In this document: piece by piece, positions 51,056 through 64,000 of the stretch
Numbering within the stretch: position 1 is the first letter of the stretch
How the letters are laid out: each line of letters begins with the position of its first letter
The notes under the pieces: generated by a model
Database searches by the model: none
What the model was told of the DNA's origin: nothing
Seen by the model: the letters and a program-made list of their open reading frames with translations, nothing else
Assembly (NCBI RefSeq): GCF_038957035.1
Contig: NZ_CP152412.1
Location: 5,390,501-5,454,500, forward strand
Length of the DNA: 64,000 bases
Direction: 5' to 3'
DNA from: Bradyrhizobium sp. B097
Lineage (GTDB): Bacteria; Pseudomonadota; Alphaproteobacteria; Rhizobiales; Xanthobacteraceae
Program-made: the position numbers and the translations under genes

Positions 51056-51667
51056 ATGGGCAAGGGTTTTGACAGCGCTGCTGTCGCTTTCCATCGCGAT
51101 GGAGAATTGGCCCTCGACGCCAGCGTCGTGACCATCGGCGCGTTCGACGGCGTCCACCGCGGCCATCAGGAACTGCTCCGGCAGACCATTGCGGCAGCGC
51201 GACGCCGCGGCATTCCGGCCGTGGTCTACACCTTCGATCCGCCGCCGAAGGTATATTTCGGCCAGGCCGAGGCGCTGATCTCGCTGCACGAAAAGCTCGA
51301 GCGCATCGCAACATTCACACCGGACCATGTCATCGTCGCCGATTTCAACCAGATCTATGTCCGGCGCACCGCGGCTGACTTTCTCGCCGAGTTGCAGCTT
51401 CTGCAACCGCGTGAGGTGATCGTCGGCGAGGATTTCCGCTTCGGGTCCTGCAAGGGCGGCACCGCGCAGCTGCTGCGTCAGCACTTCAACACGCGCATCC
51501 TGCCGCCGGTGCGCTGCGGCAAGGGCGAGATCGTCTCCAGCAGCCGGATCCGCACGCTGCGGCGATCCGGCCTTGCGGCCGCCGCGTCGGCGCTTGAAAA
51601 TTGGCGAGACATCGTGACCGCGTCGCCAGCCAACCGATCCGCCCAACTCGAGGTCATCAACCCATGA
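51056..51667 (+). CDS. Stand-alone FAD-synthetase (FMN adenylyltransferase) domain
   Basis: A 203-residue protein with only the N-terminal half of bifunctional RibF. Visible motifs are GAFDGVHRGH (28-37, the nucleotidyltransferase HxGH-type motif), YTFDPPPKVYF, VGEDFRFGSCKGG and the late ISSSRIR. The riboflavin-kinase half is missing, so it would convert FMN to FAD but not make FMN. It overlaps the flavin reductase start by four bases and is divergent from the FADH2-consuming oxygenase, so it likely supplies FAD to this pathway. Confidence 0.8.
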   Translation: MGKGFDSAAVAFHRDGELALDASVVTIGAFDGVHRGHQELLRQTIAAARRRGIPAVVYTFDPPPKVYFGQAEALISLHEKLERIATFTPDHVIVADFNQIYVRRTAADFLAELQLLQPREVIVGEDFRFGSCKGGTAQLLRQHFNTRILPPVRCGKGEIVSSSRIRTLRRSGLAAAASALENWRDIVTASPANRSAQLEVINP

Positions 51668-52188
51668 CCGCCATCGATCCGCGCGAGCTGCGCAATGCCT
51701 GTGGCCAATTCGGCACCGGCGTCACCATCATCACCACGCATTGCGAGGGACGCGACCATGGCATGACGGCCAACGCCTTCATGTCGGTTTCGCTCGATCC
51801 GCCACTGGTCGCGATCTCGATCGCGAAAAGCGCGAAGATGCTCTGCAACATCCAGAACACCGGCCGCTTTGCGGTCAGCATTCTGGCTGAGGGAATGGAG
51901 GATCTTGCCTGGCATTTCGCGGGCAAGCCCAGGCTCGACCTCTGCGACGTCTTCGAACGCCGCAACGAGCTGCCCGTCATCGCCAACGCTGCAGCTTACT
52001 TCGTGACCGATCTTGCGGATGAGATCGTCGCGGGCGACCACACCATCTTTCTGGGGCACGTCCGCGAGATGTCGCTGGAGCCTGGCAAAAAGCCGCTGCT
52101 GTTCTGCCGCGGCCGCTTCGGCGGCCTTGCCGATCCGCACCCGGCGCCCGCGATGCTGGAGAATGCGGCTTACGAATTTGTCTGGTGA
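51664..52188 (+). CDS. Flavin reductase component, HpaC/PheA2-like
   Basis: A 174-residue NAD(P)H:flavin oxidoreductase: the FGTGVTIITT start, GMTANAFMSVSLDPPLVAISI flavin-binding segment and GDHTIFLGHV are the family's hallmarks. It should provide free FADH2 to the oxygenase encoded divergently at 49226-50803. Its ATG overlaps the FAD-synthetase stop by four bases, so FAD synthesis and FAD reduction are coupled in translation. Confidence 0.88.
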   Translation: MTAIDPRELRNACGQFGTGVTIITTHCEGRDHGMTANAFMSVSLDPPLVAISIAKSAKMLCNIQNTGRFAVSILAEGMEDLAWHFAGKPRLDLCDVFERRNELPVIANAAAYFVTDLADEIVAGDHTIFLGHVREMSLEPGKKPLLFCRGRFGGLADPHPAPAMLENAAYEFVW

Positions 52189-52260
52189 GACCGCCAGGAG
52201 ATATTCCCGAAAACGGGGATGCAAGTTTGATCCAAACTGCAAGAAAAGGAGGAAACGACC

Positions 52261-53130
52261 ATGCTGAACGTCAACAAGGACACCATCACCGACCACGTGA
52301 TCGCCGCGCTCTCGAACGACATTCCTGATCGCAACCGTCAGATCATGACGAGCCTGATCCGCCACATGCACGCGTTCTGCAAGGAGGTCGACCTGACCTT
52401 CGCCGAGTGGTTCGCCGCCTGCGAATTCCTGCGCCGCGCCGGCGACATCTCGGACGAGAAGCGCAACGAGTTCATCCTGATCGCCGACATTCTCGGCGTC
52501 GAGGTGCTGGTCGACATGCTCGACCACCGGGTCACCGATGGTGAGAGCGAGTCCACCGTGCTCGGGCCGTTCTATCGGGAGAACCCGCCGGTGCTGCCCA
52601 AGGGCGCCTCCATCATCAAGAAGACGTTCGACAACGCGCAGACCGTCAAGGTCAGCGGGCGCATCAGCGATACCGCGGGCCGGCCGATCGAGGGCGTCAC
52701 CATCGACGTCTGGGAAGACGCGCCGAACGGGCTCTATGACCTGCAAGACCCCGAGCAGCCAGCCTATAATCTGCGCGGGCGGTTCACCACCGACGCCAAC
52801 GGCGAATACGCCTTCGTGGCGCTCCGTCCCGAGCCCTACCCGATCCCCTATGACGGCGCCGGCGGCGAGCTCTTGAAATACATGGGCCACCATCCCTGGC
52901 GCCCGGGCCACATTCACTTCATGCTGTCGAAGGACGGCTATCAATCGCTGATCTCGCAGATCTACGATTCCGAGACCAAGTATCTCGACAATGACTCGGT
53001 GTTCGCCGTGAAGCAGAGCCTGATCGGCAAGTTCGCCAAGGCGCCGGCCGGCGCCGACACCGATCTCGTTCTCGATTTCGACTTCAAGCTCAAGAAGGCG
53101 GCGGTCGAGCGCCTCGTCGCGGCCGAATGA
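52261..53130 (+). CDS. Intradiol ring-cleavage dioxygenase (catechol 1,2-dioxygenase type)
   Basis: A 289-residue non-haem iron(III) dioxygenase. The four iron ligands fit the family spacing: Y159 (NGLYDLQ), Y193 (EPYPIPY), H217 and H219 (RPGHIHF). An N-terminal dimerisation/linker domain (1-90) precedes the catalytic beta-sandwich. The HHPWRPGHIHFML segment resembles hydroxyquinol 1,2-dioxygenases, whereas the adjacent catB/catC genes imply a catechol substrate; the assignment as CatA is contextual. AAGGAGG lies eight bases before the ATG. Confidence 0.88.
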   Translation: MLNVNKDTITDHVIAALSNDIPDRNRQIMTSLIRHMHAFCKEVDLTFAEWFAACEFLRRAGDISDEKRNEFILIADILGVEVLVDMLDHRVTDGESESTVLGPFYRENPPVLPKGASIIKKTFDNAQTVKVSGRISDTAGRPIEGVTIDVWEDAPNGLYDLQDPEQPAYNLRGRFTTDANGEYAFVALRPEPYPIPYDGAGGELLKYMGHHPWRPGHIHFMLSKDGYQSLISQIYDSETKYLDNDSVFAVKQSLIGKFAKAPAGADTDLVLDFDFKLKKAAVERLVAAE

Positions 53131-53141
53131 TCCACACCACG

Positions 53142-53170
53142 CCCTGCCAGGCCGGGAAGGCCTGGCAGGG
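53142..53170 (+). terminator. Perfect 12-bp hairpin between dioxygenase and cycloisomerase genes
   Basis: CCCTGCCAGGCC (53142-53153) pairs perfectly with GGCCTGGCAGGG (53159-53170) around a five-base loop. Only a weak T-rich stretch follows, so partial termination or transcript-end protection of the upstream genes is more likely than full termination. Confidence 0.6.
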
Positions 53171-53198
53171 TTCACTTTGAACTGACCTGCGAGGACCT

Positions 53199-54377
53199 AT
53201 GAGTCGTGCCGTGATCGAAATCGCCGAGCCCGTGGAGCAAGTGCGGAACTTCGCAAGGGACACTGCGATCCGCAGTATCCGCGCCACCATCGTCGAAGCG
53301 CCGACCCGCCGGCGGCACAAGCTTTCGAACACGGAGGTCACGCATCAGGGCTACGTTCTGGTGCGCGCGCTGCTCGACAACGGCGTGACGGGCATCGGCG
53401 AAGCCTCGACGCTCGGCGGACCGCGCTGGGCCGAGGAGAGCGTGGAATCGATCAAGGCCGCGGTCACGAATTACCTGGCGCCGGCGCTGCTCGGGCAGCC
53501 TGCCCTCGCCTTCGAAGCCAATGCCTTGCGCATGAGCAAGGCCGCGACCCGCAATTTCGCCGCCAAGGGCGCCATCGAATCCGCCCTGCTCGACGCCGCC
53601 GGCAAGACGCTCGGCCTCCCCGCCAGCGCGCTGCTCGGTGGTGCAGTTCGCCAGCGCATGGAAGTGATCTGGGCGCTGGCCTCGGGCGACAGCGGCCAGG
53701 AACTGGAGGAAGCAAAGGAGAAGCTGCGCCGCCGCGAACATCGTCAGTTCAAGATCAAGTTCGGCTTCAACCGCCCACCGGCCGATCTGAAGCGGTTGCA
53801 GACGCTGCGCGCCGGCCTCGGCGACGAGGTGCGCCTGATCGTCGATGTCAACCAGGGCTGGACCGAAGCCGAATGCATCCGCTTCATGCCTGCGCTGGAG
53901 GAACTGGACGTCGCGCTGGTCGAACAGCCGGTGTCGGCACTGCAGCTGGAAGCCATGGCGCGTGTCGCGGCGCGCACTTCCATTCCGTTGCTTGTCGACG
54001 AAGCGGCCTTCACCAAGGAGGAAATCGCCCGCGTCGCCACGATGGGTTGCGGCAGCGTCTATTCGCTGAAGCTCGTGAAGAGCGGCGGCCTGTTCGAGAT
54101 GAAGCGTGCCGCCGCGGTCGCCGGCGCCCACGGCCTCGAGCTCTACGGCGGCTGCCTGCTCGAGAGCAGCATCGGCGCGGCCGCGCATCTCGCCGCATTC
54201 GCCACCCTGCCCAGGCTCGAATGGGGAAGCGAGCATTTCGGCCCGCGGATCCTCGTGGAAGACCTCGTCGTCAACCCGATCAGATTCGACGCGTTCGAGA
54301 TCTGCGTGCCCGATGGCCCGGGCCTCGGCGTCGAGGTCGACGAGGACAAGATCCGCGCCTTCGCCCGGAAGGACTAG
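53199..54377 (+). CDS. catB: Muconate cycloisomerase
   Basis: Cyclises cis,cis-muconate to muconolactone. A 392-residue member of the enolase superfamily with the muconate-cycloisomerase layout: the catalytic K-x-K (K185 and K187 in FKIKFGF), metal ligands D216 (VDVNQGW), E242 (VEQP) and D267 (VDEAAF), and K291 (KLVKSGG) on the opposite face. Dipeptide epimerases share these residues, but the neighbouring catC and intradiol dioxygenase decide for CatB. It lies after the hairpin behind the dioxygenase gene. Confidence 0.9.
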   Translation: MSRAVIEIAEPVEQVRNFARDTAIRSIRATIVEAPTRRRHKLSNTEVTHQGYVLVRALLDNGVTGIGEASTLGGPRWAEESVESIKAAVTNYLAPALLGQPALAFEANALRMSKAATRNFAAKGAIESALLDAAGKTLGLPASALLGGAVRQRMEVIWALASGDSGQELEEAKEKLRRREHRQFKIKFGFNRPPADLKRLQTLRAGLGDEVRLIVDVNQGWTEAECIRFMPALEELDVALVEQPVSALQLEAMARVAARTSIPLLVDEAAFTKEEIARVATMGCGSVYSLKLVKSGGLFEMKRAAAVAGAHGLELYGGCLLESSIGAAAHLAAFATLPRLEWGSEHFGPRILVEDLVVNPIRFDAFEICVPDGPGLGVEVDEDKIRAFARKD

Positions 54378-54563
54378 CCAGATGACGTCGTCCGCGCGGA
54401 CAATTGACAATCCAGGGATGCCCGCACAGTCTTCCCGCCGGAACCACCGTCTCGATCATGCGCCGATGACCACGCGATATCAAACCCGGCAGGCCTTTCC
54501 CGCAGCTTCCGCGGAAGCGCGCGGACAAACGCTCGGCTGACCGTGACCGATCGCGACGACGTC

Positions 54564-55460
54564 ATGGATCTGAGGCGACTGGTCTACTTCGTCGCCGTCG
54601 CCGAGGAATTGCATTTCGGCCGCGCCGCATCACGGCTCGCGATCGCCCAGCCGCCGCTCAGCCGGCAGATTGCGCAGCTGGAGAGCGATCTCGGCGTCGT
54701 ACTCATCGACCGGAGCCGAAGCCAGATCCGTTTGACCCAGGCCGGCAGCGTTCTGCTGGAACGTGCGCGCGATGTGCTGGAGCGGCTCGATCGGACGCAC
54801 CGCGAGATCAAGCGGATCGGCGAAGGCTTTTCGGGGCACCTGCGCGTCGCCTTCGTCGGATCGGCGACCTATGGCGTGCTGCCCAATGTGATCAAGGCGT
54901 TTCGCTCGGCCTATCCCGACGTCGAGCTCGCGCTGTCGGCGATGAACAACGCCGAGCAGAAGCGCGCGGTGATCCAGCGCGAGATCGATATCGCCGTCGC
55001 CCGGCCCTCGCTCGACGACGAGGAATTGAAGTCGGAGCCGCTGCTGCAGGAGCCGTTGATCCTCGCGCTATCAGACACCTCGCCCTTGCTCGAGCAGCAG
55101 GTCACGCGGCTGACTGCGCTGAAGGCCGAGACCTTCGTGCTCTACCCGCGCAAGCCGCGCCCGAGCTTCGCCGACCACATCCTCAATATCTGCCTCGAAG
55201 AGGGCTTCATTCCGAAATCGCAGGTGCTGGCCCAGGACTATCAGACCGCGATCAGCCTGGTGTCGGTCGGCGTCGGCATCGCGCTGGTGCCGCAATCGGT
55301 CTCGCAGGCGGACCGGCCCGGTGTCGCCTATCGCGCCTATGAGGGACATAATCCCGGCACCGCGCTGTCGCTGAACTACCGGCGCGACAACCGGATGCCG
55401 CACCTCTTCAACTTCCTGAAAATCGCACAAGACGTCGTGCGGCGTCAGCGCAAGCAATAG
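54564..55460 (+). CDS. LysR-family regulator, CatR/BenM-like
   Basis: A 298-residue LysR-type regulator. The N-terminal winged helix is plain (MDLRRLVYFVAVAEELHFGRAA to QPPLSRQIAQLE), followed by an effector domain. Members with HFGRAA and QPPLSRQI are typical of the CatR/BenM/CbnR group, which respond to muconate. It is the last gene on the plus strand of the locus, so it is a plausible regulator of both arms through the divergent promoter at 50804-51055. The ATG at 54564 is preferred to a GTG at 54543. Confidence 0.87.
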   Translation: MDLRRLVYFVAVAEELHFGRAASRLAIAQPPLSRQIAQLESDLGVVLIDRSRSQIRLTQAGSVLLERARDVLERLDRTHREIKRIGEGFSGHLRVAFVGSATYGVLPNVIKAFRSAYPDVELALSAMNNAEQKRAVIQREIDIAVARPSLDDEELKSEPLLQEPLILALSDTSPLLEQQVTRLTALKAETFVLYPRKPRPSFADHILNICLEEGFIPKSQVLAQDYQTAISLVSVGVGIALVPQSVSQADRPGVAYRAYEGHNPGTALSLNYRRDNRMPHLFNFLKIAQDVVRRQRKQ

Positions 55461-55462
55461 CC

Positions 55463-56458
55463 TCAGGCCGCGACCGCCGCAGGCGCGCGGTCGTCGACGC
55501 GTGCGATCGCCTCGCGCAGCACATCGGTCCCGGCGCCCGGCCGAACGCCGTTCTCCGCGAGATGCCTGCGGAAGGCGCGCGCGCCTGGCACGCCGTGGAA
55601 AGCACCGACGAAATGGCGCGTGATCGAATGCAGCCGCGTGCCTTCAGCCAGTTGCCGCTCGATATAGGGCAGCATCGCCGCGAAGACGTCCTTCATCGTG
55701 GCGTGCGGCGGCGTTTCACCGAACAGCTCGGAATCGACGGTCAGCAGCCGCCACGGCTCCTGATAGGCCGCCCGCCCCAGCATCACGCCATCGACCTGTG
55801 CCAGATGCTGCTTCGCTTCGGCGATACTCGTGATGCCGCCGTTGATGATGATGGGCACGTTCGGCAGCACCGCCTTGAGGCGATAGACGCGATCGTAGTC
55901 GAGCGGCGGGATGTCGCGGTTCTCCTTAGGCGACAATCCGTTGAGCCAGGCCTTGCGCGCGTGCACGACGAGCGCATCCGCGCCTGCGGCAATCACGCCG
56001 CGCGCCAGCGTATCGAGCGCGACTTCCGGATCCTGGTCGTCGATGCCGATCCGGCACTTCACCGTGACGGGAATCTTCACCGCGCGCTTCATCGCCGCAA
56101 CGCCCTCGGCAACCAGCGCGGGCTCCGCCATCAGGCAGGCGCCGAACCGGCCGTCCTTCACCCGATCGGACGGACAGCCGACATTGAGATTGATTTCGTC
56201 ATAGCCGAAGTCCTCGCCGATCTGCGCGGCAGTCGCGAGATCGCGCGGATCGGAACCGCCGAGCTGCAGCGCCACCGGGTGCTCGCTGGCATCGAAGCCG
56301 AGCAACCGCGCCCGGTCGCCGTGGATCACCGCACCCGTCGTCAGCATCTCCGTATAAAGCCGCGCCCGCCGCGACATCAGGCGATGGAAGACCCGGCACT
56401 GCCGGTCGGTCCAATCCATCATCGGGGCCACGGAAAAGCGATAATCTTGCGATTTCAA
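55463..56458 (-). CDS. dusA: tRNA-dihydrouridine synthase A
   Basis: Reduces uridine in the tRNA D-loop using FMN. The 331-residue protein opens with APMMDWTDRQCR, the DusA hallmark, and continues with LNVGCPSDRVKDGRFGACLM (flavin site and catalytic cysteine region) and VHARKAWLNGLSPKENR. The gene appears intact: the start at 56458 lies only about 135 bases from the integrase start and the N-terminus is normal. The dusA 5' end is a known integration site of a specific integrase family, which fits the element next to it. Confidence 0.94.
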   Translation of the reverse strand: MKSQDYRFSVAPMMDWTDRQCRVFHRLMSRRARLYTEMLTTGAVIHGDRARLLGFDASEHPVALQLGGSDPRDLATAAQIGEDFGYDEINLNVGCPSDRVKDGRFGACLMAEPALVAEGVAAMKRAVKIPVTVKCRIGIDDQDPEVALDTLARGVIAAGADALVVHARKAWLNGLSPKENRDIPPLDYDRVYRLKAVLPNVPIIINGGITSIAEAKQHLAQVDGVMLGRAAYQEPWRLLTVDSELFGETPPHATMKDVFAAMLPYIERQLAEGTRLHSITRHFVGAFHGVPGARAFRRHLAENGVRPGAGTDVLREAIARVDDRAPAAVAA

Positions 56459-56592
56459 TGATTTACCTTATGCTTCAATGGGATGAAACACGAACGTGTG
56501 CACTCCAAACTAGCCGAATTTGCACACGTTTGTACCCGTTTTGACCTGCCAGTGCACACGTAGCGCACACGATTTGGGGAGTGCACACGACC
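56400..56592. other. Island left junction (putative attL) and integrase leader
   Basis: The junction between dusA and the island. The integration core of dusA elements is in the first part of the gene, so attL should lie within or just before 56400-56460, with the island beginning nearby. No second copy of the core is in this window, so the exact att sequence cannot be set. The DNA here and in the integrase is visibly richer in A and T than the flanking chromosome. Confidence 0.6.
56495..56589. repeat. Cluster of TGCACACG octamers before the integrase
   Basis: TGCACACG occurs at 56521-56528, 56553-56560 and 56582-56589, an inverted copy (CGTGTGCA) at 56495-56502 and a one-base variant (CGCACACG) at 56564-56571: five in 95 bases. 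Start-to-start spacings on the plus strand are 32, 11 and 18. They could be arm-type integrase or excisionase sites, or autoregulatory operators. The last copy overlaps the first possible integrase start codon. Confidence 0.75.
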
Positions 56593-57693
56593 GTGGCCAG
56601 TTTCACTCAGTTGCCGTCCGGGAGTTGGCGTGTCCAGGTCCGCCGCAAGAACCGCTATGTGGCGGAGACCTTCCGTCGCCGTAAGGATGGCGAGGAATGG
56701 GCGCTCGACATTGAGCGCAATATCGATCGCTGCGGGTCACCCAGGCCCCGAGCCGCTGTAAAGGCCAAAACCTTCGGCGACATCATCGATCTTCATATCG
56801 AAGACATGCTCGAAGTCGGTCGTCCTCCCCGCCGATCCAAGGCGGCTGTCCTGGAGGCTCTGAAGGAGGATCTCGGAACCGTAAAGCTTCCCCGTCTCGA
56901 CCGTGAGAGGTTGATCGAATACGGCAGGAAACGCGCGAAGGAAGGTGCCGGCCCAGCTACCCTTGCAATCGATATGTCGTTCATCAGAACCATCGCAACG
57001 CATGCAGCAGCTGTTCACGGAATCGAAATTTCTGCCGAAGAGGTGCGCTTGGCACGTTTCGCGTTGAAGCATTTAGGTCTCGTCGGAAAGTCCGATGAGC
57101 GAGATCGACGTCCCACTCAAGATGAGCTCGACGAGCTCATCGAATATTTCGAGAGCAATCCGCGACAGGTCATCCCGATGGGCCGCATCGTCCGATACGC
57201 CGTTGCAACCACAATGCGGCAAGAGGAGATTTGCCGGCCTGACTGGCCGGACGTCGACATGGCGAAGCGGATTCTCACGATCATGGACCGCAAGGATCCG
57301 AGAAAGAAGGATGGTAACAATCAGAAAGTCCCGCTTCTCAATCTGACCGGCTATGACGCCTGGGAAATCATGCTCCAGCAGCGCATCATCACCAAAGGAC
57401 AGGGGCGCGTATTCCCGTATAATCACAAGTCAGTAAGCGCGGCATTTACGCGCGCCTGCGACGAGTTGAAGATCGAGGATCTGCATTTTCACGACCTGCG
57501 GCACGAAGGTACAAGCCGCTTGTTCGAAGCTGGGCTCACGATCGAAAAGGTCGCGCTGGTCACCGGTCACAAAGATTGGCGCACGTTGCGGCGCTACACG
57601 AAATTGAGGCCCGAAGAGCTTCACAAGCTGCAAACTAAGCCACAGCCAACTCTGGAAGAGTATCTCCGGACACTAGATACCGTACAGGCGTAG
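56593..57693 (+). CDS. Tyrosine recombinase, dusA-type island integrase
   Basis: A 366-residue site-specific recombinase. The C-terminal catalytic domain shows the first Arg in TTMRQEEI, HFHDLRHEG (His-x-x-Arg), TGHKDW (second His) and the nucleophile tyrosine in RRYTKL. The N-terminus (FTQLPSGSWRVQVRRKNRY) is an arm-binding domain of the AP2-like type. The position at the dusA 5' end matches the described dusA-associated integrase family. I chose GTG at 56593 because GGGGAG lies 11 bases upstream; a GTG at 56581 would overlap that site and an octamer. Its stop is one base from the convergent DUF2274 stop. Confidence 0.88.
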   Translation: MASFTQLPSGSWRVQVRRKNRYVAETFRRRKDGEEWALDIERNIDRCGSPRPRAAVKAKTFGDIIDLHIEDMLEVGRPPRRSKAAVLEALKEDLGTVKLPRLDRERLIEYGRKRAKEGAGPATLAIDMSFIRTIATHAAAVHGIEISAEEVRLARFALKHLGLVGKSDERDRRPTQDELDELIEYFESNPRQVIPMGRIVRYAVATTMRQEEICRPDWPDVDMAKRILTIMDRKDPRKKDGNNQKVPLLNLTGYDAWEIMLQQRIITKGQGRVFPYNHKSVSAAFTRACDELKIEDLHFHDLRHEGTSRLFEAGLTIEKVALVTGHKDWRTLRRYTKLRPEELHKLQTKPQPTLEEYLRTLDTVQA

Positions 57694-57694
57694 A

Positions 57695-57931
57695 TCAGGA
57701 TTGTCGTTCGGCCTGCGAAGAGCTGGCACCGCCGATTCTCATTTTCTTGAATGCCGCGTCGGTGTCGATAAATGCTTGCAGCATAAACGGAATCAAATCC
57801 GCAATTTCCTCTCGTGTGCCGTACGTCTGCGCATAGAAATCGGCGTACTCACGTAGGTGCTTGGCTAGGCTTGGCGCAAGTACGAGATTCATTTTCACCG
57901 GAGTTCGGTCGGGCAGCTTCGCGAGCTTCAT
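57695..57931 (-). CDS. DUF2274 protein at the end of the trb operon
   Basis: A 78-residue protein with the DUF2274 pattern (PVKMNLVLAPSLAKHLREYADFY, then EIADLIPFMLQAFIDTDAAF). Such genes commonly follow trbI in chromosomal trb-type conjugation clusters; the role is unknown. It starts three bases after trbI stops on the same strand. A ribbon-helix-helix-like look is possible but not certain. Confidence 0.82.
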   Translation of the reverse strand: MKLAKLPDRTPVKMNLVLAPSLAKHLREYADFYAQTYGTREEIADLIPFMLQAFIDTDAAFKKMRIGGASSSQAERQS

Positions 57932-57934
57932 CTC

Positions 57935-59224
57935 TCACCTACCCTTAGCCACTGCCTGAACATCCCGGTAGGGTTTCAATACCAGATCCTTCGAAACAAT
58001 CACCCGCAGCGGCCATCCCGGTCGCACCGTGATCGTCGGCTGCACGTCGAGCTGGCGTTCCACCAGTCGTTGACCAGCACGATTGGTCGTCTGCTGCGTG
58101 CTTTCCCGCAGTGCCTTCACGAGATCGCTCTCGTCATGACCGATCGATAATTGCGTCCCTACTCCGATCAGTGTCGCCAAGGCCACGCCCTTGAGCAGTT
58201 GCCAGGTATGGAAGTCCACCTCATCCTCGAGCCCGGCGTAGCCCGCAACATCAGTAGCTGGAAGGTTCTCGATCACCATGGAATTGCCATTCGGCAGGAC
58301 TAGGCGCGTCCAGACGACAAGCGCCCGCTTCTGGCCGAAGGCTACCACGCTATCGTATTTGCCGATGAGCCGCGTCCCCTGTGGCACGAGCAGATGCTCG
58401 CCCGTCACGGTGTCGTAGACGTTCTCCGTGACCTGAGCGATCGTGGCGCCGGGCAAATCCGAGTTCAGCCCCGTGACCAGGCTCGCTGGTATAATCGTCC
58501 CCGCCATCACGGCGTAGGTGGAGGGCGCCGGCAGAAGCGCATGCGGATTAATGGTCTCGGTGTCAGCTTTCGCTCCCACAAAGGCGAGCTTTCGCGCCTG
58601 CGACGAGGGCACGATCTCGTCTGACCGATCGAGCATCGCCCGCGCAGCTTTCGCGAGCTCAGCCGCGGACGGCCCAGGATCGGCTGCCTGTGGCCGGAAG
58701 GAGGACGGTGGGCTGACGGCCACTTCCGTAACATCAGCGCGTCTGCGCTTGTCCTGCTTTTCCGACAGACGGAAGAACAGGCCCGACTCCCTTGCCTGTT
58801 GCGCGACACGCACCTGGCGAATGCGTTCGGCTCTCTCGGCATCCTCTTCCGGGTTGGTGCGGAAGCCTGGATCCGATGATGACGCGGTGCCGACTTTCTT
58901 TTCATTCTCGGCAAAAGCCCGGCCGATATCGCCCGGAGATGGCGGTCCAAGCCGCGGCGTTGACGGCGATAGCTCTTCGTAAGATTTGGGCAGCTTGCTC
59001 AGCCCCTCCGCTGTTTGCTTCCGGTCTGTGTTGTATAGCTCTGGCCGGTCCGCCTGCTTCAATGACCGCAGCGGCCGGAGCGCCAAGATCGTCGCACCGG
59101 CAATGAACAATGCAGCGACCGCGCATCCGATCATGAGTGCGCGCGTGTTCAACCGGCGAATAGGCCGCGGCCGTGCCCGCAGCTCCAGAGGCTCCGGCGG
59201 CTCCCGATCCACCCCGCTTGTCAT
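57935..59224 (-). CDS. trbI: Conjugal transfer protein TrbI (VirB10-like)
   Basis: A 429-residue inner-to-outer-membrane bridging protein of the type IV secretion channel. It has a short cytoplasmic N-terminus, one helix (about 30-50), a long proline-rich periplasmic linker and a C-terminal VirB10 domain with LVPQGTRLIGKYDS and FHTWQLLKGVALATLIG. Its ATG overlaps the trbG stop by four bases. Confidence 0.92.
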   Translation of the reverse strand: MTSGVDREPPEPLELRARPRPIRRLNTRALMIGCAVAALFIAGATILALRPLRSLKQADRPELYNTDRKQTAEGLSKLPKSYEELSPSTPRLGPPSPGDIGRAFAENEKKVGTASSSDPGFRTNPEEDAERAERIRQVRVAQQARESGLFFRLSEKQDKRRRADVTEVAVSPPSSFRPQAADPGPSAAELAKAARAMLDRSDEIVPSSQARKLAFVGAKADTETINPHALLPAPSTYAVMAGTIIPASLVTGLNSDLPGATIAQVTENVYDTVTGEHLLVPQGTRLIGKYDSVVAFGQKRALVVWTRLVLPNGNSMVIENLPATDVAGYAGLEDEVDFHTWQLLKGVALATLIGVGTQLSIGHDESDLVKALRESTQQTTNRAGQRLVERQLDVQPTITVRPGWPLRVIVSKDLVLKPYRDVQAVAKGR

Positions 59225-60246
59225 GAGGCACTCCCGGCGTTGACGGCTTGCGACACCGGCCGCGCATCAATGCGGATGATCCGGACGATGCGCTGGGGAT
59301 CCTCGCCCAGACGGAGCTCGGCGGCGCCAAACATGCGGTCAACAACGTAGTAGGTGCCCCGGACGCGATAGTTCACAAGATTTGGACGACCGTCGGCGCC
59401 TGCAACAAACAAGGGCGGCGCCTCGCCCTGCGACAGGCCTGATGGCATCTGGATGAAGACCTTGCGGCCATCGTCGAACGCCCGCAGGGGTCGCCATGGC
59501 GGATCATCGCCTTCGATGCGGTAGCGGAAGTTAAGGCTGTCGAGCCGAACGCCGCGATCGGCGACCCGTTCCTCGTTTGCCTGGGCGGTCGCGTTCTGCT
59601 TGTGAAGGGCAACCAGAGTATCCGTCGGATATGTCCAGGAGATCGAAGCCATATAGGTCTGCTTGGTCGAGACGAGCTCTAGATGGTAGGCGCGCCGGTC
59701 GGTCAGGATCACCAGATTGGTCTGGACATCCGGAAGCGTCGGTTTGACGAGGATATGGACCCGCCGGCTGCTACCCTGACCGCTCGAGGTATCGCCGACC
59801 ACCCATCGAACGGTGTCGCCCGTGGAGACGTCGATCAGTTCCTCACCAGGCTGAAGCGCGATAGTCGAGACCTTCTCGGGGCTGGCATAGAGCCGATAGA
59901 GGGCCCCTTCAGTCCACGGATAGACCTGAATCGCGTTGATGTAACCGGCCCGGGTCGGCTCCATCCGCGCAGCCTTGTTCGCCTTGGCAATCGCCTGCTC
60001 AGGCGGCACCTTTTCTTCCTTGGCGCCCTTCTTCGGATAGGGCTTGAGCTGGCCAGGCAATGGCAGGACCTTGGGCGCCTCGACAATTTCGACGGGCTTC
60101 GGCGGATCTGCCTCCGGGAGCGCTTGCTCGAATGTCAGCTCATCATAAGGTGCTTCGAGGTTGAGCTTTGTGGCGCATCCGCAGAGCACAAGCGACAGGA
60201 CCAGGACGCTGGCCGACGCGAGCTTGGTTGTGGCAGCAGAATTCAT
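59221..60246 (-). CDS. trbG: Conjugal transfer lipoprotein TrbG (VirB9-like)
   Basis: A 341-residue outer-membrane component. The lipobox LVLCGC is in the signal sequence, followed by a Pro/Lys-rich region and VirB9/TrbG domains with IQVYPWTEGALYRLYASPEKV and NFRYRIEGDDPPWRP. I set the start at 60246, which overlaps the trbF stop by four bases; the open frame runs further upstream but without family resemblance. Both overlaps indicate tight translational coupling. Confidence 0.9.
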   Translation of the reverse strand: MNSAATTKLASASVLVLSLVLCGCATKLNLEAPYDELTFEQALPEADPPKPVEIVEAPKVLPLPGQLKPYPKKGAKEEKVPPEQAIAKANKAARMEPTRAGYINAIQVYPWTEGALYRLYASPEKVSTIALQPGEELIDVSTGDTVRWVVGDTSSGQGSSRRVHILVKPTLPDVQTNLVILTDRRAYHLELVSTKQTYMASISWTYPTDTLVALHKQNATAQANEERVADRGVRLDSLNFRYRIEGDDPPWRPLRAFDDGRKVFIQMPSGLSQGEAPPLFVAGADGRPNLVNYRVRGTYYVVDRMFGAAELRLGEDPQRIVRIIRIDARPVSQAVNAGSAS

Positions 60247-60947
60247 TTGGCGTCTCCGATGAGGTCGCGCGACCAGTTGAGGGAATGAACGTAGAGGCCG
60301 AGCGGATTCTTGCGCAGCGTCTCGGCGTCCGCCGGCGGTTTGAGAACCGTGGTGACGAGACCAGTGAATCGCTCGGTCCTGGCGATCGTGCCGTTCTCGA
60401 AAGCGTTCTCCTTCCAGCGGATTTCGAAGCTGTCGCCGGATGCACGCACCACCGAGGTAACTTCGGCGGTGACGGTCCTCGAGCCGATTTTCGCGAACGG
60501 ATCGGTTTCTCGCGCGTAGTCGTTCAGGGCTTGCGCGCCGCGATCGGTGACGAAGTCGTAGGCCCGCAGCCAATTCGTGCGGACAATCACGGGGTCGATC
60601 GACAACGAACGAACGTTCTCGATGAACCGCGCCAGAAAGTGCGCGATCTGCGCATCCGAGGGCTGATACGCTTCCATCGCAGGTCCGACGGCGCGGACCT
60701 CGCCCAACCGGTCGACTTCGACCACATAGGGGACGACGCCTGAGCGGGCGATCACGGTGAGCAGCGCTAACCCGAGAACACCGGACACAGCGGTGATGCC
60801 CAGCGCCGCGAGCCGCCAATTGCTCGCCTGAACTCGCGCGGACCCCAGCCGCTCGTCCCAGACCTGGCCCGCTTTCTGGTAGGGCGTCACGGGCTCTGGC
60901 GTCTCTCCGTAGCGAACGGATACGCGTTGAAAGGGATGACCGGCCAT
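60243..60947 (-). CDS. trbF: Conjugal transfer protein TrbF (VirB8-like)
   Basis: A 234-residue bitopic protein: cytoplasmic N-terminus, one helix (about 47-66), and a periplasmic VirB8-like domain with VVEVDRLGEVRAVGPA and DPFAKIGSRTVTAEV. It nucleates the inner-membrane channel. The FQRVSVRYGETPEPVTPYQKAGQVWDERLG start is typical of TrbF of this type. Confidence 0.92.
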   Translation of the reverse strand: MAGHPFQRVSVRYGETPEPVTPYQKAGQVWDERLGSARVQASNWRLAALGITAVSGVLGLALLTVIARSGVVPYVVEVDRLGEVRAVGPAMEAYQPSDAQIAHFLARFIENVRSLSIDPVIVRTNWLRAYDFVTDRGAQALNDYARETDPFAKIGSRTVTAEVTSVVRASGDSFEIRWKENAFENGTIARTERFTGLVTTVLKPPADAETLRKNPLGLYVHSLNWSRDLIGDAK

Positions 60948-60950
60948 GTG

Positions 60951-62105
60951 TCAGTCCTCCCCGAGCTTCGGACCCGAGGAATGACCGCCCTTGTCCCCAT
61001 CCTTCAGGGTATGGGCAGCAATCTGCGCTGCCTCCCGGGCGTGCAGTGCCGAGGCCGCAACGCGCGAAGAGCCGGGGGCCGCGGCCCCGCTCGCTGCTCC
61101 GACGCTTCCGACCGCAGACGGCTCGGCAGCGGCAGCATGTGCTGCACCGCCGCCGACCGACGATGCTCCGCCCAGCGACGCCGCGGAACGGACCGCTGTC
61201 ATCGACCCACTCGCGGCCATGCGGAGCCCGCCCACAGCAACCGCGCCGCCTCCGATCGCAACAGCAGCCGCACCAGCGACTGTACCCGCCGCAGACCCGG
61301 CCCCCAATTGAGGCGCACCCGACACAAGGCCGGCGGCAATGCCCGGACCAAAGATTCCAAGTCCAAACAGGGAGAGCGCCGCAAGCAGCAAGCTCATGGC
61401 CGACGCAATATCGACCGGTCGCGTCAGCGTGCTTGCGAGTTGACCGAAGATGGTCGAACCGATGCCGACAATGATCGCCAGCATCATCACCTTGACGCCG
61501 GAGGCTACGACATTGCCGAGCGTCTTTTCGGCGAGGAATGCAGTCTTGCCCCAAAGCGCGAACGGCACGAGGATGAAGCTCGCAAGTGTCGTCAGCTTGA
61601 ACTCGATCAGCGTGACGAAGAGCTGAACCGACAGCACGAAGAACGCGAGCACGATCACGATCCAGCAGAACAAGATGATCAGGATCGTTGGCAGGTTCGT
61701 CAGCACATCGAGGCCGGAAAACTGGCTCACCTCTTCCAGAAGCGGATGCGCTGCAGTAAACCCGGCGGCGGCAACGAAGCCCGGCCGGGCCAAATCAGCC
61801 GCGCTCAATGTGCCGCCTGACGCTTTCAGGCCGATTCCCGAAAACGAGTTGAAGATGATGTTGGCAAGGCTCTTGAAGTTGCCGATGATGAAGGCGAACG
61901 CACCGACGTAGAGGATCTTCTTGGCAAGCGTCACCAGGATCTGGTCGTCGGCCCGCATGCTCCAGGCAAGTCCGGCAAGCGTGAGATCGATGACGACGAG
62001 TGTCGAACTCAGGAACGAAACTTCGCCCGACAGAAGACCAAAGCCCGAGTCGATATAGCGCGAGAAAGTCTCGGTGAAGCGATCGATGACGGAGAGATCA
62101 GCCAT
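60951..62105 (-). CDS. trbL: Conjugal transfer protein TrbL (VirB6-like)
   Basis: A 384-residue polytopic membrane protein. The N-terminus MADLSVIDRFTETFSRYIDSGFGLL, multiple helices between about 25 and 260, and an Ala/Gly/Ser-rich C-terminal tail fit TrbL. It is a channel subunit at the inner membrane. It starts 11 bases after the trbJ stop, with no room for a trbK gene between them. Confidence 0.9.
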   Translation of the reverse strand: MADLSVIDRFTETFSRYIDSGFGLLSGEVSFLSSTLVVIDLTLAGLAWSMRADDQILVTLAKKILYVGAFAFIIGNFKSLANIIFNSFSGIGLKASGGTLSAADLARPGFVAAAGFTAAHPLLEEVSQFSGLDVLTNLPTILIILFCWIVIVLAFFVLSVQLFVTLIEFKLTTLASFILVPFALWGKTAFLAEKTLGNVVASGVKVMMLAIIVGIGSTIFGQLASTLTRPVDIASAMSLLLAALSLFGLGIFGPGIAAGLVSGAPQLGAGSAAGTVAGAAAVAIGGGAVAVGGLRMAASGSMTAVRSAASLGGASSVGGGAAHAAAAEPSAVGSVGAASGAAAPGSSRVAASALHAREAAQIAAHTLKDGDKGGHSSGPKLGED

Positions 62106-62116
62106 GGCGCCCTCTC

Positions 62117-62869
62117 CTATCTGCCGCCGGCGTAGGCATGGCCATCGCCGATGAAGCGGATGAAGCGCTCCTGGGCGGCCGCCGCGGATGCGCGCTCCTC
62201 GGCCGCCCTCAACGTGTCGGCGCGGGCCTGGGTCGCCAGCAGCGTCTGCATCTGCATTGCTTGCTTGATCTGTAGAGCCAGCAACTCGTTGCCGGACTGC
62301 TGGGCCTGCAAGGAGCCGACCGCGGCTGACGAATTAGTCATCAGCGTGCGAAGCGTCTGGCCGTCCTGGTCCAGGTTACTGACGATGGCCGACTGCATCG
62401 TCAGCGCCTGCTTGAGCCCCTCATAGCTGTTGTTCCAGCGTGCGGTTGCATCCAGCACCATCCTGTCCGACGTTGTCGCGGCGCCATACTGACGAGGATA
62501 GAGCTGCGCAAAATCCTGCTGCGTCCTCTGAACGTCGAACGAAATGCCTTTCGCTTGAGCGATCAGGCTGTTCATCTGACTGATCGTCGAGGTCAGCTGA
62601 CCGACGACGCTGGTCGGAAGGCTCGCCAGATGCTTGGCCTGATTGAGAAGCGACTGGGCCTGATTTTCGAGGCTCCTGACCTGGTTGTTGATCTGCTCCA
62701 ACGTGCGAGCGGCAGTCAGAAGATTCTGGCCGTAGTTTGAGGGGTCGAACACGATATCGAATGCCCCAACCCGTCGCGATCCATTCACGGCGACGACTAT
62801 AGATAGTGCTACGGTCACGAAGATTCTTGTAGTTGTACGCGCAGATAAGCGGCCGATACTTTCGAGCAT
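62117..62869 (-). CDS. trbJ: Conjugal transfer protein TrbJ
   Basis: A 250-residue exported protein with a signal peptide (cleavage near VGAFD) and a long helical coiled-coil region (LEQINNQVRSLENQAQSLLNQAK). TrbJ is VirB5-like and may form part of the pilus tip. The ATG at 62869 has GGAG six bases upstream; a TTG four codons earlier is unlikely. Confidence 0.88.
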   Translation of the reverse strand: MLESIGRLSARTTTRIFVTVALSIVVAVNGSRRVGAFDIVFDPSNYGQNLLTAARTLEQINNQVRSLENQAQSLLNQAKHLASLPTSVVGQLTSTISQMNSLIAQAKGISFDVQRTQQDFAQLYPRQYGAATTSDRMVLDATARWNNSYEGLKQALTMQSAIVSNLDQDGQTLRTLMTNSSAAVGSLQAQQSGNELLALQIKQAMQMQTLLATQARADTLRAAEERASAAAAQERFIRFIGDGHAYAGGR

Positions 62870-62895
62870 AGGAAACTCCAAAGATTGAGGTCGGG

Positions 62896-64000
62896 TCAGG
62901 CCCTGTGGGCCTGTTCAAAGGTGCTGATCAGATTGGCGGCCCAGTGCAGATCGCGTTCAGCGAAATAGCGCTCGGCAAAATGGTAGGGCCCCGAGCGGGC
63001 TAAGACCTCGTCAATGGCGCGCTGATCCTCCGGCGAGGACGCCCCGACGAGCGCAAGCGCGGCCGGTCCAAGACCAAGTTCGAACAGGCGGTTGCCGGCA
63101 CGCGACTGCAGGTAGTAGTCGCGCTTGGGAAAGGCCTCGGCGATCAGGCGCACTTGCGTGTCGTTCAGGCCGAAGCGCCGATAGGTTTCGGTCTGGGTCG
63201 GCTCAAGGGCACGGGGATTGGGCAGGAATATCCGGCTCGGACAGGACTCGATGATCGCGGGCGCAATCTCGCTCTCCGCGATATCGGCAAGCGATTGAGT
63301 GGCAAACACCACCGCCACATTCTTCTTGCGCAACGTCTTCAGCCATTCACGAATCCGGCTCGAGAACAATGGATCGTCAAGGAAGACCCAGGCTTCATCG
63401 AGCACCAGCAAGGTCGGGCGCCCATCGAAACGCGCCTCCAGAGTGTGGAAGAGATAGGTGAGCACGGGTGCGACCAGCACCGGCAGCGCCATCAGCTCTT
63501 CCATTTCGAAAGTCAGGACGTCGGCACTCGAAAGGCGGTCGGCGTCCGCATCGAGGAAACGACCGTAAGGTCCCTCCAGCGTATAAGGCTGAAGCGCCTG
63601 ACGCAGGGCGTCTCGTGCGAGCAAGGCCACAAGCCCCGTCATCGTGCGCTGGGAGACCGGCGCCGTACCGAGGCTCTTGAGCGCCGACCAGAGGGTCTCC
63701 TTGACCTCGGGCGTCACGCTGACGCGCTCGTGGGCAAGCACGCCGCAGAGCCAGTCGAGCGCCCAGAGCCGCGCGCCCTCCTCGGCTACATCCTTGAGCG
63801 GCTGGAACGCGATGCCACCCTTGGCCCCGAGCTCGTACCACGCACCCGACAGCGCAAGGGTCGTGGCGCGAGCGGAACGGCCCTTGTCGAATATGATCAG
63901 CTGGGCATTCGGATAGCGCCGAAACTGCAAGGCCAGCATCGACAGCAACACCGACTTGCCGGCGCCAGTCGGGCCGACGACGATGGAATGCCCGACGTCG
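62896..64000 (-). CDS. trbE: Conjugal transfer ATPase TrbE (VirB4-like), partial
   Basis: The C-terminal part (about 367 residues) of the TrbE/VirB4 ATPase that powers the secretion channel; the gene continues beyond the window's right edge. The frame holds the Walker A GPTGAGKS near 63951-63976 and Walker B LLVLDEAWVFLDDP, then ATQSLADIAESEIAPAI, typical of VirB4. The start cannot be seen here. The stop is 27 bases before trbJ. Confidence 0.93.
   Translation of the reverse strand, partial: DVGHSIVVGPTGAGKSVLLSMLALQFRRYPNAQLIIFDKGRSARATTLALSGAWYELGAKGGIAFQPLKDVAEEGARLWALDWLCGVLAHERVSVTPEVKETLWSALKSLGTAPVSQRTMTGLVALLARDALRQALQPYTLEGPYGRFLDADADRLSSADVLTFEMEELMALPVLVAPVLTYLFHTLEARFDGRPTLLVLDEAWVFLDDPLFSSRIREWLKTLRKKNVAVVFATQSLADIAESEIAPAIIESCPSRIFLPNPRALEPTQTETYRRFGLNDTQVRLIAEAFPKRDYYLQSRAGNRLFELGLGPAALALVGASSPEDQRAIDEVLARSGPYHFAERYFAERDLHWAANLISTFEQAHRA

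Follow-up and report, generated by a model that had tools for sequence, protein, structure and literature searches.

In islands of the dusA-associated integrase (DAI) type, the integrase gene adjoins the dusA 5' end, which the island itself supplies, and the direct repeats are semi-conserved; some of these islands carry conjugative cargo, and sizes reach 184.8 kb (Farrugia et al., 2015; PMC4482086; this and the other articles cited are used as far as their accessible parts go). Further traits of the type are excision as a circle and Rci as the recombinase family closest to the integrase. In accretion of the Streptococcus type, elements without integration and transfer genes, termed cis-mobilizable elements (CIMEs), keep their attachment (att) sites and lie in tandem with an integrative and conjugative element (ICE) (PMC5704250). 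Here we describe the dusA locus of Bradyrhizobium sp. B097, covering a window (the whole 64,000-nucleotide stretch analysed, positions 5390501-5454500 of the single complete chromosome of 9252481 bases, 9.25 Mb; chromosome position = window position + 5390500) together with the DNA to its right, where a Trb-type ICE inserted in dusA probably heads an array that dusA-associated integrases assembled by accretion at the core site of this gene.

The locus resembles DAI islands in the position of its integrase, the direct repeats, the dusA 5' end derived from the island and the conjugative cargo. Those are, however, presented as single islands, accretion being raised only as a possibility, and the accessible parts of that account hold neither arrays of right-end sites nor a counterpart of the left half-site, here called X, that follows several of the cores described below (PMC4482086). 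Streptococcus-type accretion differs in that its typical target is a gene 3' end and its CIMEs are decayed ICEs or integrative and mobilizable elements (PMC5704250), whereas here the shared half-site X marks integrase-less modules across the genus. Excision has been demonstrated for PAISt of Streptomyces turgidiscabies (PMC4057263), while the two internal sites of the present locus, each with arms, are known from sequence alone. The dusA islands of Vibrio share the target gene and include one tandem pair, but are mobilised by IncC plasmids, and the consulted portion of that source describes no array (PMC8409611); the same target gene is used by Mesorhizobium ICEs, again with no array described in the part of the article available (PMC8627217). 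Predicted conjugative dusA elements in Bradyrhizobium have already been mentioned (PMC8409611), and the ICE by itself is therefore not new. No description of right-end arrays at dusA in Bradyrhizobium was found in the accessible parts of the open-access literature (PMC4482086, PMC9174649, PMC8627217, PMC7656271, PMC11476347, PMC5704250, PMC8409611, PMC4057263). Accretion is of a known kind; what is new is a genus-wide array whose sites share one orientation and an X half-site.

The dusA junction, its integrase and the right-end sites

The dusA gene (window 55463..56458, minus strand) is an intact open reading frame (NF008774, 516.7 bits, cut-off 269) that contains the 13-bp core of the left att site (56410..56422, plus strand; chromosome 5446910-5446922). 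The left end, comprising the dusA leader and the integrase-upstream region with GTGCACACG-type arms, occupies 56406..56569 (plus strand), and is followed by a dusA-associated tyrosine integrase gene (56581..57693, plus strand; PF00589, 77 bits, E 2e-21) that starts 122 bases past the dusA start codon. The dusA leader and first codons are supplied by the inserted element, and because the element carries these replacements dusA stays intact.

The integrase is a tyrosine recombinase of the RHRH/Y kind located at the dusA 5' end, as in DAI islands, and its five catalytic residues (R212, H303, R306, H329 and Y338) are invariant in seven relatives. Its sole match in its own genome is the integrase gene itself, and its 20 closest named relatives, at 79-91% identity, are all from Bradyrhizobium. 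Among the best 80 of 251 GTDB relatives, the dusA 5' end adjoins the integrase in 73 of the 77 testable loci, the other three having too little upstream DNA for the test; the pairing of integrase and dusA is for this reason not a matter of chance. Within the same best 80, trbI or trbG lies downstream of the integrase in 7 of the 65 loci with at least 3 kb of downstream sequence. An integrase relative, partial in three cases, stands beside dusA in 19 of 30 dusA loci of the genus (the best dusA matches of 60 genomes, own genome included).

Three sites with the character of right ends lie to the right of the window; we denote by R a right end consisting of paired arms and core, and by D the dusA leader. 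The farthest, R3, has its core at chromosome 5562771, identical to the dusA core over 13 bp and set in a repeat that matches the dusA site at 18/21 positions, a semi-conserved 21-bp direct repeat of the kind found in DAI islands. A right end bearing two GTGCACACG arms, a motif that also occurs upstream of the integrase gene, adjoins this core on the left. On the right come a dusA leader, here displaced, and an integrase-upstream region, which together match the left end at 82% identity (165 columns) and are followed by no relative of the integrase; a similar left end therefore stood at R3 earlier. R1 (5523827-5523921, core 5523906) and R2 (5549664-5549758, core 5549743) each match the dusA core at 12/13 positions and score E 6.4e-28 and 1.5e-28, respectively, against a profile of 32 sites that includes the locus's own; after both cores comes X, not the dusA leader. 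The three sites share one orientation and lie 77.0 kb (R1), 102.8 kb (R2) and 115.9 kb (R3) from the dusA core. The GC content is 0.617 in the ICE, 0.621 and 0.614 in the two intervals between the sites, 0.652 in window positions 1-56400 and 0.648 to the right of R3.

With three right-end sites, two of which adjoin a half-site foreign to dusA, the locus is a composite array and not one simple island, and the ICE in the strict sense may span no more than 77 kb. The initial annotation, made from the window, had placed a recombinase near an intact dusA 5' end followed by minus-strand trb genes, all of which are found at those positions, and had proposed integration at dusA, which the second dusA core with its displaced 5' leader bears out. 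The island itself stands, as the duplicated core sought to the right is present at 5562771 and gene order beside dusA differs among relatives; the picture of a conjugative island with one far att site holds for the island and for its second core, and gives way to three right-end sites in place of one.

Modules, half-site X and relatives

Two modules, of 25.8 kb (R1-X to R2) and 13.0 kb (R2-X to R3), are bounded by att sites at both ends in the manner of CIMEs. Neither contains a detectable relative of the ICE integrase, and no integration or transfer genes were found among 12 Pfam-scanned genes of the two modules. The larger holds a formate dehydrogenase-like operon (hereafter the fdh block, tentatively so named after its molybdopterin, Fe-S and cytochrome b561 domains) as well as an NHLP bacteriocin export set (chromosome 5538982-5549361), in which three models exceed their cut-offs and which includes three small possible precursor peptides, double-glycine-leader-like by eye, with one PF10439 match below cut-off. 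The smaller encodes a porin, an MFS transporter and S15-type hydrolases. The genomes G069 (94%), G139, G043, G003 and G009 have ~13-14 kb of the fdh block in common with the present one. A core site precedes the fdh stretch by ~0.25-0.85 kb in G043, G003, G012, G092 and G115 (with R) and in G021 (with another left half), and G009 has a decayed core-leader before the block, as judged by eye.

Across the genus, an R-core-X query finds matches in 103 of 146 genomes (at most five candidates scored per genome), while in a set of 297 genomes from the order, with two candidates scored per genome, eight match, six of them in this genus and two, both weak, outside it. When up to 3 mismatches are allowed, a 22-mer of X occurs 61 times, in 39 of the 146 genomes; its backwards control occurs 9 times, in 9 genomes. 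At 30 loci of this 22-mer, R arms stand before X in 18, a core without recognised arms in 9 and neither in 3. Partners change at the core: R is joined to D or to X, and X to R and to other left halves. One locus in G137 (L175) joins a dusA remnant of ~25 codons to X at the core; separately, a dusA 5' fragment in another genome (G030:C1:2188551-2188607) lies ~408 kb from that genome's full dusA. A tRNA origin of X, considered for the tRNA-like look of some flanks, was rejected when ARAGORN found no tRNA in 14 loci.

The right-hand partner also separates the sites by what follows them. An integrase relative was found downstream of X at 0 of 41 testable sites (32 R-X and 9 other-X), of dusA-D at 20 of 30, of R-D at 1 of 15 and of R joined to an unclassified right half at 1 of 13, the unclassified class including dusA leader variants that the leader probe missed, with D under-counted as a result. 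These counts cover sites after deduplication, each with 1.2 kb or more of downstream sequence (a length that 13 X sites did not reach), and derive from a plain mismatch scan; the sites came from the R-core-X, X and dusA searches, which is not a random sample, and the test used seven integrase queries of 33-100% identity, which other integrase families may escape. At L166, L167 and position 132448 of the G053 region, core-leader junctions carry a different left half (S) in which paired arms are missing and which may be a right end belonging to another subfamily of dusA integrases.

Orientation was read in seven regions running outwards from dusA. The 21 non-dusA sites kept (G000, 3; G053, 4; G004, 5; G020, 4; G026, 2; G009, 2; G120, 1) all lie on one strand, and the reversed sequences of nine regions yielded no classified site. 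A site was excluded from this set when it combined an unclassified left half with a leader-like right half and more than one core mismatch. The strand was chosen by the analyst for G118, G043, G069 and G139, and G137, G107, G144 and G003 are likewise not anchored at dusA; all eight are therefore uninformative on orientation to it. The distance from an X site to the next site (n = 11) is 4.3 to 56.9 kb, except for 0.4 kb in G043.

Seven relatives have no detected integrase relative beside dusA, and they show no mutual right flank within ~14 kb that would define a universal empty site, so only G041, G120 and G043 served as local comparators. G120, whose dusA DNA is 94% identical, has R3 and 1.5 kb of right flank in common with the present genome (85%), as well as the same left end (85%, 295 columns) and ~110 bp of the integrase gene, the latter fused to terminal ICE cargo that is shared over 13.1 kb at 95.5% identity, an arrangement such as would be left after deletion of the conjugation genes. 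In both G118 and G120 the terminal cargo runs into a decayed right-end-like sequence, recognised by eye, at the point where the present genome departs towards R1. In G041, 11.2 kb of the flank right of R3 recurs (92%), at a distance of 1.8 kb from that genome's dusA core and past another core-leader site; the common stretch stops ~110 bp before a further site. From ~5574.4 kb the present genome is collinear with G043, where that DNA is 10.6 kb from dusA. Block order differs between these two species: the 0.6-kb surroundings of R2 (81%) lie to the left of the fdh block in G043 and to its right here.

The proposed accreted array and its alternatives

In the most probable account the array arose by accretion. 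A dusA-associated tyrosine integrase would insert the ICE at the 13-bp core in the dusA 5' coding end, and an incoming circle would recombine through its own core with that of dusA or of a right-end site already resident. Elements would then stack head to tail in a single orientation, displaced elements would lose their integrase, and integrase-less modules sharing the left half-site X could be captured in trans, with putative conjugative transfer of the ICE. The order at this locus is dusA, core, leader, integrase gene and ICE (77.0 kb), R1-core-X, the 25.8-kb module, R2-core-X, the 13.0-kb module, R3-core-old dusA leader and flank. In favour of this account stand the full complement of trb, traG and RlxS genes, the core, displaced leader and GC step at R3, the profile scores of R1 and R2, the single strand of the sites kept, the changes of partner at the core, the differing frequency of integrases downstream of X and of dusA-D, the arrangement in G120 and the changed block order in G043. 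Several points weigh against it. The circle, its excision and its transfer are predictions from DNA sequence; no same-species pair with and without a module occurs among the comparators; and R1 and R2 each differ from the dusA core at one of 13 positions. The account does not explain X, which abuts intact dusA at 0 of 30 dusA loci, perhaps because it would leave dusA without its usual start, and X sites are also found far from dusA. In the orientation survey, the two weak sites set aside are a minus-strand site in G026 and a plus-strand site with an integrase remnant in G120, and one of the 21 sites kept, in G009 (73804 of its region), is doubtful, with two core mismatches and a weak left half. 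Moreover, no site was found beside the fdh block in G069, G139 or G127 within the stretches fetched, and 12 of 14 genomes have the block 56-354 kb to the right of dusA, the exceptions being G016 and G024 (a hand count over G000-G059 with a strong fdh match on the dusA contig). On these two grounds the fdh block could be old local DNA rather than a captured module.

This last point is also what would favour limiting the ICE to the 77 kb from dusA to R1 and regarding everything to the right of R1 as ordinary chromosome with surviving older sites: the start of the fdh block is matched in 110 of 146 genomes, weak matches included, its position right of dusA is widely kept, and core sites stand close before it in G043, G003, G012, G092, G115 and G021. 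Such a limit is nevertheless quite improbable, given that the displaced dusA leader lies at R3 and not at R1, that low GC continues to R3, and that the flank right of R3 is present both in G041, which lacks an fdh match, and in G120, for which no such match is listed. It is unlikely, too, that a single ordinary ICE of 115.9 kb extends from dusA to R3, with R1 and R2 as silent internal copies of a right end that have no role in recombination. The perfect core and displaced dusA leader occur at R3 alone and GC is even over the whole span, as such an element would have it, but R1 and R2 possess full arms, core and an X that is found genus-wide, and cargo stops at a right-end-like sequence in G118 and G120 also. 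Spread of R-core-X as a dispersed repeat, by transposition or gene conversion rather than by integrase, would fit the many copies per genome and the location of some far from dusA; it is very improbable in view of half-sites that swap partners at the core, a constant orientation to dusA in the regions read and an arm motif that recurs before the integrase gene.

Beyond accretion, we offer as a tentative conjecture, one we regard as rather less than probable, that dusA in Bradyrhizobium behaves as a giant integron made up of islands, in which the head-site integrase would recombine the standard sites (arms, 13-bp core and X) that end integrase-less modules of ~4-57 kb, and a bacteriocin export cluster or a formate dehydrogenase-like operon might be captured, shuffled and carried off with the resident ICE. 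The likeness concerns a possible way of working, not family: an integron with a cassette array was rejected, no integron integrase model having reached its cut-off. Were the modules to move in trans, a single testable engine, consisting of one integrase type and one site type, would account for much of the variable DNA next to dusA in the genus; the R-core-leader and R-core-X sites would allow pangenome studies to divide arrays into modules and would show how integrase-less cargo gains mobility from an ICE.

Conjugation genes, cargo and neighbouring features

An integrase, a relaxase, a coupling protein and type IV secretion genes lie between att sites, as in a Trb-type ICE. Within the window, past the integrase gene and all on the minus strand, come a gene for a DUF2274 protein (57695..57931; PF10038, E 2.3e-21), trbI (VirB10-like, 57935..59224; PF03743, E 7.4e-61, above the Pfam cut-off and below that of NCBIfam), trbG (VirB9-like, 59221..60246; TIGR02775, 267.5 bits, cut-off 180.85), trbF (VirB8-like, 60243..60947; NF010446, 345.4 bits, cut-off 152), trbL (VirB6-like, 60951..62105; NF010449, 462.5 bits, cut-off 442), trbJ (VirB5-like, 62117..62881; NF010448, 260.5 bits, cut-off 225) and the 3' part of trbE (VirB4 ATPase, 62896..64000), which the window end cuts and which at full length scores 1306.4 bits with NF010447 (cut-off 1020).

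To the right, where gene limits come from a simple, purpose-written codon-usage caller, lie the full trbE, trbD, trbC and trbB (TrbB 388 bits, cut-off 304; TrbC and TrbD by Pfam), a gene right of trbB for a 185-residue protein with no Pfam match, traG (5458157-5460184; TraG 1109.6 bits, cut-off 674), a RES-domain gene and an RlxS/DUF3363 relaxase gene (5462006-5463976; RlxS 903 bits, cut-off 850). The relaxase, traG and cargo that the initial annotation had expected beyond the window are thus in place. Past the relaxase follow a DUF736 gene, a helix-turn-helix gene and a LuxI/LuxR pair nearest to TraI/TraR, whose scores miss the NCBIfam cut-offs. Cargo of the ICE further right includes an acyl-CoA ligase, a thiolase, a serine recombinase and a 3654-residue protein with RTX-type repeats (2506 N-terminal residues scanned) that adjoins a C39-peptidase ABC exporter and an HlyD protein. 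A reading frame of 3952 residues (chromosome 5510676-5522534) has no Pfam match, and its region is 95-96% identical in G118 and G120.

Outside the array, at the dusA 3' end, window positions 51601-55460 hold what appears by eye, from open reading frame translations only, to be a cluster for aromatic-compound breakdown, with flavin reductase-like, intradiol dioxygenase-like, muconate cycloisomerase-like and LysR-like genes. Farther along the chromosome, at 5665289-5672578, self-matches reveal about fifteen tandem copies of a ~489-bp unit.

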